NCBI GenBank assembly: GCA_001313365.1
Contig: BBFS01000127.1
Span: 1 to 12,528 of the forward strand
DNA length: 12,528 nucleotides
Direction: 5' to 3'
DNA from: Paenarthrobacter nitroguajacolicus JCM 14115
Lineage (GTDB): Bacteria; Actinomycetota; Actinomycetes; Actinomycetales; Micrococcaceae
Shown here: in pieces, positions 1 through 12,528 of the stretch
Layout of the letters: each line of letters opens with the position of its first letter
Numbering within the stretch: the stretch's first letter is position 1
Notes under the pieces: generated by a model
What the model saw: only the letters and a program-made list of their open reading frames with translations
Told to the model about the DNA's origin: nothing
The model's database searches: none
Made by a program: the position numbers and the translations under genes

Positions 1-73
1 TCGCCGCCCCCCCGGGCGCCCCCCCCACGCCACAGGCCGCTGATGGTGCCCCCCCGGTTCCGTCAAAGCCGAG
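1..73. other. C-rich sequence downstream of parE, no gene seen
   Basis: This short stretch lies past the parE stop codon and holds three C runs of 7, 8 and 7 bases (7-13, 19-26, 49-55). I see no start codon with a ribosome site, no convincing hairpin with a T tract and no recognisable product. The C runs are probably over-long, as elsewhere in the window, so the true sequence here is uncertain. Confidence 0.5.
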
Positions 74-2187
74 CTAGGCGTCGATGCGCTCCCGGTCCAG
101 GGTGGCCGCGCCGGCAATAATGAACTCCTTACGCGGCGCCACGTCCGAGCCCATCAAAAGATCGAAGACTTCCTCGGCACGTTGGGCGCTATCGATGCCC
201 ACCTTCCGGAGGGTCCGGTGTCGTGGATCCATAGTGGTCTCGGCCAGTTGCTGAGCGTCCATTTCGCCCAAACCCTTATACCGCTGGATAGGTTCCTTGT
301 AGCGTTTGCCTTCCTTGGCAAGGTTGGAGAGAAGCACGTGAAGCTCGGCCTCTGAGTAGGTGTAGATCATCTCATTGGCCTTCTGGCCGGGGGTTGATCA
401 CTTCCACGCGGTGCAGGGGCGGGACAGCGGCAAACACGCGGCCGGCCTCGACCATGGGACGCATGTATCGGAAGAACAGGGTGAGCAGCAGTGTGCGGAT
501 GTGCGCGCCGTCAACGTCGCGTCAGTCATGAGGATGACCTTGCCGTAACGGGCAGCGTCAATGTCGAAGCTTCGACCGAGCCGGCGCCCACAACCTGGAT
601 CAACGCCGCGCACTCAGCGTTGGACAACATGTCGCCTACGGATGCTTTCTGGACGTTCAGGATCTTGCCGCGGATGGGCAGCAGTGCCTGAAAGTCGGAT
701 GAGCGGGCAAGTTTGGCAGTACCGAGCGCCGAGTCACCCTCCACGATGAACAGTTCAGAGCGCGCGACGTCATCAGTACGGCAGTCTGCAAGCTTGGTGG
801 GCATTGACGAAGTTTCCAGGGCGTTCTTGCGGCGCTGGGTTTCCTTGTGCACGCGGGCAGAGATGCGCGACTTCATCTCGGCGACCATCTTCTCCAGGAG
901 GAGCGCCGACTGGGCTTTGTCGTTGCGGTTGGCCGAGTTCAGCCTTGTAGTTATTTCCTTCTCAACCACTTTGGCCACGATTGCCCGTACCGCCGAGGTA
1001 CCAAGGATCTCCTTGGTCTGTCCCTCGAACTGCGGCTCCGCAAGCCGGACAGTCAGGACGGCAGTCAGCCCGGCGAGAATGTCGTCTTTCTCAATCTTGT
1101 CGTTGCCGGCTTTGAGCTTGCGCGCGTTCGTCTCCACGGCCTTGCGGAAGGTCTTCAGCAGGGCGGCCTCAAAACCGGACTGGTGCGTTCCGCCCTTGGG
1201 CGTTGCGATGATGTTGACGAAGCTGCGCATAGTGGTCTCGTAACCGATGCCCCAACGCAGGGCGATGTCCACCTCGCAGTCACGTTCAACTTCCGCGATC
1301 TTGCTGTGCCCGTTCTCATCGAGGACCGGAACGGTTTCCTTGAATTTTCCAGAACCGTGAAGGCGCCAGACATCCGTCACTCCGGAATCGGCAGCGAGGA
1401 ACTCGACAAACTCGGAGATGCCGCCATCGTGATGGAACACTTCCTCATGGACACCGGCCTCACCAGGTGTTCCGGCCAGCTTGCGCTCGTCGCGCACGGT
1501 GATTTTCAGGCCGGGCACAAGGAACGATGTTTGGCGGGCCCGCGCTGCCAGGTCGTCGTAGGAGAACTTGGCGTCAGGGGTGAAAATTTGACGGTCTGCC
1601 CAATAACGCACGCGAGTTCCCGTGACGCCACGCTTTGCCTTGCCCACAACATCCAGCACCGAGTTCTCAACGAACGGCTCGAAGGGTGCATTGGGGGGGC
1701 TTGGTTTTGCACCGGAATCCACGAAGCGTCCCGGCTCGCCGCGGCGGAACGACATCTGGTAGGTCTTGCTGCCCCCCCGGTCCACCTGGACATCAAGGCG
1801 GCTGGACAAAGCGTTCACCACTGAAGCTCCGACGCCATGCAAACCGCCCGAGGCTGTGTAGGAACCGCCGCCGAACTTGCCGCCCGCGTGCAGTTTGGTG
1901 AACACGACTTCGACGCCGGAGAGGCCTGTCTTGGGCTCTACGTCCACAGGGATACCGCGGCCGTCGTCGTGGATTTCCACGGAGTTGTCGGCATGCAGGA
2001 TGACTTTAATGTCATGTCCAAAGCCTGCAAGAGCCTCATCTACGGCGTTGTCGATGATTTCCCATAGGCAGTGCATGAGGCCGCGCGAGTCAGTGGAGCC
2101 GATGTACATGCCCGGGCGCTTGCGAACGGCTTCCAGGCCCTCAAGGACAGACAGATGCCGGGCGTTGTATTCAGAACTCGGTGCCAC
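74..2187 (-). CDS. parE: DNA topoisomerase IV subunit B / second GyrB-type ATPase subunit (frameshifted as written)
   Basis: ATPase subunit of a type IIA topoisomerase; with its A partner it passes one duplex through another to decatenate or relax DNA. The GHKL ATPase domain is clear: [11 protein letters not shown] near residues 43-53, DDGRGIP at 74-80, [13 protein letters not shown] near 115-127 and the QTK loop near 390. The Toprim domain follows with EGDSA near 483, then [12 protein letters not shown] and QRYKGLGEM near the C terminus. The start is GTG at 2187, with AAGGAG at 2198-2203 and a 10-nt spacer; an open frame upstream lacks family similarity. As written the frame breaks three times: a base missing near 576, one missing near 519, and an extra G in the run 389-393. 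Correcting these gives about 704 residues, normal for the family. Two extra codons come from the 7-base runs at 1693 and 1772. Its position by sigA, away from any gyrA or dnaA seen here, favours ParE over the main GyrB, but sequence alone does not settle that. Confidence 0.92.
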
Positions 2188-2441
2188 TCGCGGTGTGCTC
2201 CTTCGGGGTATATCTCCGGGTGCTTCCCAGCCGTGTGTTGACTGGTAATTCAAGGCAAACACTGCCCGTACAAGCGTAGCCGGGGAAGTCATCAGCGCCG
2301 TTTGCCACTCCAGCGCGGGCGCTGCCTGCCTGGTTACGTTACGCACATGTGATACGCGGACAGCGAAAGTGACCCATCCTTGCCATGGATCTGCCTCGAA
2401 TGCTGGTTATATGGATGTACAGAACTACTAAGGAGGCCGAC
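2188..2441. other. divergent intergenic region parE / DUF7455
   Basis: Both genes must be transcribed outward from this 254-bp stretch. I see no strong -35/-10 pair for parE. For the plus-strand gene a weak TTATAT at 2407-2412 preceded by TG (2404-2405) could act as an extended -10, with no good -35. A strong ribosome site AAGGAGG lies at 2430-2436. The parE frame stays open upstream of its chosen start (to 2346), but that part looks non-coding by family comparison. Confidence 0.4.
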
Positions 2442-11701: not shown

Positions 11702-11811
11702 GTCTTACCAAGACCCACGGATCGGTGCATGCAGCGGAATACGCCGTGTGCACGATCGAACCAGCAGAATTCATCCGCACAAAGATCAATAAGGAGAACG
11801 GGGGGGACGAC

Positions 11812-12528
11812 ATGTCTGAATCCGTTAACTTGCCCGCCCTCGGTGAGAGTGTCACCGAAGGAACCGTCACCCGCTGGCTCAAGCAGGTTGGTGACCGGGT
11901 GGAGATCGACGAGCCGTTGCTCGAGGTTTCAACCGACAAAGTAGACACCGAAATCCCTTCTCCGATCTCAGGCGTCATCGAAGAAATCCTCGTCGCTGAA
12001 GACGAGACGGCCGAAGTAGGCGCCCCCCTTGGTCCGAATCGGCGACGGTTCCGGCTCCGCCGCTCCGGCGGCTGAGTCCGCACCGGCTGAGGAAGCTCCT
12101 GCCGCGCCGCAGAGCAGGCAGCACCGGCCGAAGAGGCTCCTGCCGCACCCACCGCTGAAGAAGCACCGGCGGCTGAAGCACCCGCTGCTTCAGGCGAGGG
12201 CCATGAAGTAACCCTCCCCCCGCATTGGGCGAGAGCGTCACCGAGGGTACTGTCACCCGCTGGCTCAAGGCTGTTGGCGATACCGTTGAGGTGGACGAAC
12301 CCCCCCTCCTCGAGGTTTCCACCGACAAGGTAGACACCGAAATTCCTTCCCCGGTTGCCGGCACCCTGCAGGAAATCCGCGTCAGCGAGGACGAAACAGC
12401 AGAGGTAGGCTCCGTGCTTGCCATCATCGGTTCCGGCGCAGCTGCTCCTGCATCGGCTCCCGCTCCGGCTGCAGCGCCTGCCGCCGAGGCTCCGGCTGCT
12501 CCTTCTGCTGCACCGGCACCCGCCGCCG
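11812..12528 (+). CDS. sucB: 2-oxoglutarate dehydrogenase E2 / dihydrolipoamide acyltransferase, N-terminal part (frameshifted; runs off window)
   Basis: E2 core subunit of a 2-oxoacid dehydrogenase complex; its lipoyl-lysine arm carries acyl groups from E1 to CoA. Two lipoyl domains are present. The first covers residues 1-76 with the lipoylated lysine in STDKVDTE (Lys43). The second, from about 12190 to 12430, repeats [15 protein letters not shown]. An Ala/Pro/Glu linker joins them and a similar linker follows to the window edge; the E1/E3-binding and catalytic domains lie beyond. Start is ATG at 11812. AAGGAG (11791-11796) lies 15 nt upstream, lengthened by a 7-G run in the spacer. Breaks are one extra C at 12023-12028, a missing base near 12107 and two extra Cs at 12216-12221; a proline is added at 12300-12306. 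Pyruvate and 2-oxoglutarate E2s cannot be told apart from this end alone; the sucB name follows usual actinobacterial annotation of this gene next to lpd. Confidence 0.88.
11921..12353 (+). repeat. diverged direct repeat: two lipoyl-domain DNA segments
   Basis: The segment 11921-11964 recurs at 12310-12353 with four mismatches in 44 bases, all synonymous for [15 protein letters not shown]. The surrounding domains also align ([14 protein letters not shown] in both). This reflects tandem duplication of the lipoyl domain within sucB, kept similar by selection or gene conversion. Confidence 0.85.

Follow-up and report, generated by a model that had tools for sequence, protein, structure and literature searches.

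The window, as the whole 12.5-kb stretch of DNA analysed here is called, carries gyrB/parE, a DUF7455 gene, sigA, a DUF4192 gene, a gene for an MFS transporter, a PAC2 gene, pepA, lpd and the start of sucB. The genes were named from Pfam domains and background knowledge. The source is a soil bacterium, and the closest named loci are those of Arthrobacter and Paenarthrobacter. Alignment with the nearest genome, G001, spanned window positions 53-12522 at 95%, and when substitutions alone were counted the difference was 3.9% (about 96% identical). The locus of this genome, L001, was the main reference for the comparison of runs, and L009 was the second reference. The wider comparison set consisted of 81 related loci, each of at least 5 kb and together 1.66 Mb. 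L001 and L010 (MAG RL58_bin.064) gave near-identical run tables and are probably one genome, which the 81 loci then count twice. Seventeen bases preceding the PAC2 start (8159-8175) were absent from L001, and no gap was reported there against L009. Relatives also differed in the length of the spacer that separates the DUF7455 gene from sigA (2723-2850), where L009 has additional copies of a short repeat resembling GTTGCGTTGAGCC. Three C runs of 7, 8 and 7 bases were found at the window edge (1-55), in sequence aligning poorly to the nearest relative.

A sequence-only reading of the window had listed 33 runs of six or more identical bases, all of them C or G, and the recount agreed exactly, with 25 sevens, three eights and five sixes (16 C7, 9 G7, three C8, four C6 and one G6). 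The longest A or T run was five bases, in agreement with the reported absence of A/T runs of six or more. The same reading had described normal fours and fives with a second peak at seven, and the recount gave this bimodal distribution, with 28, 9, 5, 25 and 3 C/G runs of lengths 4 to 8. In the 81 related loci the corresponding spectrum fell steadily (10327, 2370, 175, 5 and 1). At the rate of these loci the window was expected to hold about 78 runs of four and 0.04 sevens; fours were thus depleted while sevens appeared, and the Poisson probability of at least 25 C/G sevens was about 1.6e-61. A first-order Markov model built from the window itself, and inflated by the excess runs, gave an expectation of 2.6 sevens.

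Exact C/G sevens were also counted in whole genomes, 101 of the genus and 395 of the family, 462 of them distinct. The maximum was 56 in the genus (G015) and 224 in the family (G377), followed by 101 (G130), and the nearest genome had 16 in 3.9 Mb. No comparable density was found among the 462 family genomes, the maximum of 224 being that of a whole genome against 25 in the 12.5-kb window. In the five genomes counted for both lengths, sixes were at least five times as frequent as sevens, an order that was inverted in the window with its 5 sixes and 25 sevens. G377, a genome of the same family, had a seven count above most of its own genus. It was rejected as a second affected genome, as its 224 sevens in 3.5 Mb were accompanied by 1265 sixes in a falling spectrum. 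Of the 101 genus genomes, G054 alone lacked exact C/G sevens altogether, over 4.2 Mb; homopolymers may have been truncated in its assembly. Hiyo4 (L028, PacBio), one of the tsunami-soil Arthrobacter genomes, showed no excess of sevens; two drafts among these genomes were made by GS FLX+ and Ion PGM, according to the available text of the report (PMC4712596), and no link between them and the window was found.

The window was then compared run by run with L001, only runs with matching flanking bases being kept. This retained 26 of the 33 long runs; left out were 1693, 1772, 8023 and 9489, where L001 carries a substitution within or next to the run, and the unaligned runs at 7-55. Among the 59 C/G runs of four or five bases in L001, 27 were unchanged in the window, 8 were longer by one base, 5 by two and 19 by three. 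For the runs of four the numbers were 25, 6, 3 and 17; the runs of five were unchanged, or had become six, seven or eight bases, in two cases each. None of the 59 was shortened and none gained more than three bases. C/G runs of three behaved differently (234 of 241 unchanged, 7 shorter, none longer), and all 115 A/T runs of three to five were unchanged. For runs of four or five, 0 of 23 A/T runs had changed and 32 of 59 C/G runs were longer (Fisher P 1.5e-6). The picture against L009 was the same, slightly less clean: C/G runs of four were unchanged in 21 cases, longer by one base in 4, by two in 2 and by three in 15, and shorter in 1, while one of 223 C/G runs of three and one of 87 A/T runs of three were longer. 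Lengthening is triggered by C/G runs of at least four bases and adds no more than three, so that the peak at seven is four plus three.

Relatives could be aligned at 30 of the 33 long runs (Table 1), and their length at these sites was one to five bases. A gain of three bases was seen at 22 runs, where 1693 and 8023 were judged against L009 and 1772, with its substitution within the run in L001, by total-length change. Three of the 22 lie outside genes, which leaves the 19 in-gene runs said in the sequence-only reading to insert exactly one codon. Its statement that the other in-gene long runs shift the frame also held, with seven such runs found; the run at 10011 (+1) is intergenic. A preferred output length of seven, which it had proposed, is probably wrong. 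The commonest change was a gain of three, and two runs of five reached eight; on these few sites, what is preferred is probably the size of the gain rather than an end length of seven. Some runs of five, outside the earlier list, also proved to be products of +1 extension. Three of the eight +1 sites (4481, 4981 and 8136) have five bases in L009 too, and the extra base there may be natural.

Table 1. Long or lengthened C/G runs in the window and their length in relatives.
Run and location	Position	Comparison with relatives
C7 at window edge	7..13	relatives not comparable
C8 at window edge	19..26	relatives not comparable
C7 at window edge	49..55	relatives not comparable
G5, gyrB/parE	389..393	4 in L001, L009; +1, frame shift
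G7, gyrB/parE	1693..1699	4 in L009; 3 in L001 with adjoining substitution
C7, gyrB/parE	1772..1778	+3 vs L001, L009 (run interrupted); 4 in L013, L018
G7, intergenic	2723..2729	4 in L001, L009; +3
G7, sigA	3746..3752	4 in L001, L009; +3
G7, sigA 5' end	4158..4164	4 in L001, L009; +3
C5, DUF4192 gene	4481..4485	4 in L001, 5 in L009; possibly natural
C6, DUF4192 gene	4578..4583	4 in L001, L009; +2, frame shift
C5, DUF4192 gene	4981..4985	4 in L001, 5 in L009; possibly natural
C7, DUF4192 gene	5133..5139	4 in L001, L009; +3
C7, DUF4192 gene	5196..5202	5 in L001, L009; +2, frame shift
G5, DUF4192 gene	5617..5621	4 in L001, L009; +1, frame shift
C7, MFS gene	5861..5867	4 in L001, L009; +3
G6, MFS gene	6200..6205	4 in L001, L009; +2, frame shift
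C8, PAC2 gene	7414..7421	5 in L001, L009; +3
G7, PAC2 gene	7658..7664	4 in L001, L009; +3
G7, PAC2 gene	8023..8029	4 in L009; 3 in L001 with adjoining substitution
G7, PAC2 gene	8068..8074	4 in L001, L009; +3
G5, probably upstream of PAC2 start	8136..8140	4 in L001, 5 in L009; possibly natural
G5, intergenic	8406..8410	4 in L001, L009; +1
C8, pepA	8524..8531	5 in L001 (+3); interrupted in L009
C7, pepA	8930..8936	4 in L001 (+3); interrupted in L009
C7, pepA	9052..9058	5 in L001, L009; +2, frame shift
C7, pepA	9071..9077	4 in L001, L009; +3
G7, pepA	9489..9495	+2 vs L001, L009 (run interrupted there)
C6, intergenic after pepA	10011..10016	5 in L001, L009; +1
C7, intergenic before lpd	10071..10077	4 in L001, L009; +3
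C7, lpd	10462..10468	4 in L001, L009; +3
C7, lpd	10756..10762	4 in L001, L009; +3
C7, lpd	11233..11239	4 in L001 (+3); 3 in L009
C7, lpd	11335..11341	4 in L001, L009; +3
C7, lpd	11515..11521	4 in L001, L009; +3
G7, just upstream of sucB start	11800..11806	4 in L001, L009; +3
C6, sucB	12023..12028	5 in L001, L009; +1, frame shift
C6, sucB	12216..12221	4 in L001 (+2, frame shift); 3 in L009
C7, sucB second lipoyl domain	12300..12306	4 in L001, L009; +3

No local feature was found that decides which runs are lengthened. The best of 20 plus-strand tests of the flanking bases gave P 0.034 and the best in C-strand orientation P 0.13, neither of which survives correction. C runs were lengthened in 21 of 34 cases and G runs in 11 of 25 (P 0.20). 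Lengthened and spared runs were not patchy along the map, with 30 alternation runs observed and 30.3 expected by shuffling; the lengthened share per 2.5 kb was 1/6, 6/10, 6/13, 8/14 and 11/16, the first bin lacking 1693 and 1772 under the flank rule. Even near-identical contexts differed, the run at 11335 gaining three bases and that at 10822 none. Selection for whole codons was rejected as the source of the +3 gains, as intergenic runs gain three bases too, at three of the five enlarged sites. These are few sites, and the share becomes three of six if 8136 (+1), counted here as PAC2, is taken as upstream of the likely PAC2 start.

Aligned with ten relatives, the window showed 44 private indels no longer than three bases, of which 23 change the frame; each relative had 1 to 11. 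Insertions made up 33 of the 44, every one of C or G once gap placement was allowed for. As aligned, 42 of the 44 indels involved C/G letters; the exceptions, a T deletion at 4604 and a TCC insertion at 5132, arose from gap placement and appear as C when the window is aligned with L001 alone. The remaining 11 indels, absent from the sequence-only reading, were deletions (519, 578, 2295, 3253, 3363, 4604, 5953, 7724, 8430, 8630 and 11754), ten of them of a single base; they were shared by none of the ten relatives. The consensus letter lost was C or G at 10 of the 11, with the letter uncertain at 519, 578, 2295, 3253 and 8630, where relatives disagree among themselves. In most cases one C or G was gone from a short run, and frames were broken by these losses too. 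The consensus thus both lengthens longer C/G runs and drops bases from short ones. The changes fall mainly in one sequence class and are private to one record.

Seven of the eight long genes were split or cut relative to L009, namely gyrB/parE, sigA, the DUF4192, MFS and PAC2 genes, pepA and sucB. lpd alone was open, with 512 residues compared to 507 in L009 and five extra codons. Intact copies of the broken genes are present in relatives, and sigA, gyrB/parE and the other broken housekeeping genes are presumably essential. The substitutions in the broken genes were still under constraint. The window had 102 private substitutions, fewer than L001 (145) and L009 (231), and of its 87 private coding substitutions 72 (83%) fell at third positions, with codon positions taken from the open frames of L009. 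Real, long-standing breakage is unlikely, because this third-position bias fits normal constraint and long-broken genes would look different.

Inserted residues were found within motifs that are conserved in relatives. GCIPTKAL in lpd had its ordinary form in all 81 related loci, and the form of the window, with the insert at 10462, occurred in none. At five other sites (3746, 7658, 11233, 11335 and 12300) the ordinary form was found in 37 to 78 of the 81 loci and the window form in none. A DNA pattern for the lpd form of the window was absent from all 101 genus genomes, and the ordinary form was present in 12 of the 12 checked for it. Both PAC2 inserts (7414 and 7658) were absent among the matches listed, the best 120 of 1918 homologues. 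An internal control was offered by sucB, whose two lipoyl domains share a peptide motif. The copy without a run of four in its codons was ordinary, and the copy with a run of four in relatives had a run of seven in the window.

The long C/G runs are best explained as a sequencing-consensus artefact, to which we give a probability of about 0.88, with 32 of 59 runs lengthened and both A/T runs and C/G threes spared. A base-calling or consensus failure restricted to C/G runs had been suspected in the sequence-only reading, and the spectrum, the lengthening rule, the private indels, the constraint on substitutions and the absence of the inserted forms elsewhere all back it. Accurate substitutions together with wrong C/G run lengths point to a fault in base calling or in the run-length consensus. 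In this scheme C/G runs of at least four bases would be over-measured during base calling, and the surplus, up to three bases, would then be accepted site by site in a consensus or polishing step. The ceiling could be due to a polishing or alignment step admitting at most three inserted bases, and the scatter from site to site could be due to thin coverage, with each outcome resting on few reads. Some points stand against the artefact. It is odd for a fault to leave every A/T run and half of the C/G runs untouched, and flanks, strand and position do not account for the choice; the nanopore and PacBio profiles match poorly, three of the +1 sites may be natural, and the rule is slightly less clean against L009.

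Known sources of homopolymer variation were compared with this pattern. Phase-variable C/G tracts lie within genes at particular loci, switch the reading frame and are long in relatives too. The runs of the window are likewise long, in-gene and able to switch frame; unlike such tracts, they lie in housekeeping genes, and at the 30 sites that align their counterparts in relatives are one to five bases long. Natural variation of tracts was rejected on account of these short counterparts and because none of the family genomes examined nears the density of the window. Flow-signal errors of 454 and Ion Torrent sequencing leave few substitutions and wrong run lengths; they extend to A/T runs and usually amount to a single base. 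The window resembles them in its few substitutions and wrong run lengths and differs in that its commonest change is a gain of three and A/T runs are spared. Nanopore assemblies also show homopolymer indels that shift frames in otherwise good sequence (PMC8011154, PMC6591954), and long C and G runs are read worse than long A and T runs (PMC8486125). In the available text of the latter report, however, length is mostly underestimated and runs below five are read well, with occasional large overestimates even for runs of 2-5. In the window fours and fives were lengthened with A/T untouched, and shortening against L001 was seen in 0 of 59 fours and fives and 7 of 241 threes. PacBio sequencing adds bases in homopolymers, C and G included, but as far as the available text goes the excess involves all four bases and is greatest for T and A (PMC7671305), whereas 0 of 23 A/T fours and fives had changed in the window. 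The platform is left unnamed because the nanopore and PacBio profiles, as these texts give them, match poorly; platform, cause of the ceiling and thin coverage are matters that we infer.

An unlikely alternative is that base calling was sound and that post-assembly software, for correction or gap-filling, wrote fixed blocks, none longer than three bases, into C/G runs. This would account for the natural-looking substitutions and for the tidy rule (restricted to C/G, from four bases upwards, with no more than three added), but the +1 and +2 sites, the spared runs and the eleven private deletions are not easily reconciled with it. Still less probable is a reading error arising from real biology, in which a modification of C or G in native DNA alters the single-molecule signal and the caller misjudges C/G runs. 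The effect is indeed limited to C/G runs, and cytosine modification is known to cause consensus errors in nanopore data, with about 70% of errors in Dcm motifs in one benchmark, as given in the accessible part of the report (PMC6591954). This explanation presupposes single-molecule reads, itself an assumption, and no flanking motif predicted the lengthened runs, and the near-identical contexts at 11335 (+3) and 10822 (unchanged) behaved differently. That the strain truly carries longer runs, through a mutator or slippage that lengthens C/G runs of at least four bases by up to three, takes the sequence as given and fits the open lpd with its five extra codons, but is very improbable, as sigA, gyrB/parE, sucB, pepA and others lose their frames while substitutions show constraint, the density is unmatched in 462 family genomes and the inserts break motifs kept in relatives. 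Any real C/G-specific chemistry, be it a modification that makes the reader count four as seven or a genome-wide +3 mutator, is unlikely.

Few C/G sixes together with many sevens is a simple flag for similar records, and the cause is worth knowing for maintainers of pipelines. No published description of this signature was found in the titles and abstracts covered by a limited search, which does not exclude that one exists. With a consensus artefact as the preferred explanation, the record is not fit for annotation in its present form. If it were annotated so, sigA, gyrB/parE, sucB and other housekeeping genes would be called broken, and extra residues that probably do not exist would be placed beside conserved motifs, for example GCIPTK in lpd. 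The living organism, an actinobacterium close to Paenarthrobacter, would probably have intact housekeeping genes and C/G runs of the usual four and five bases.
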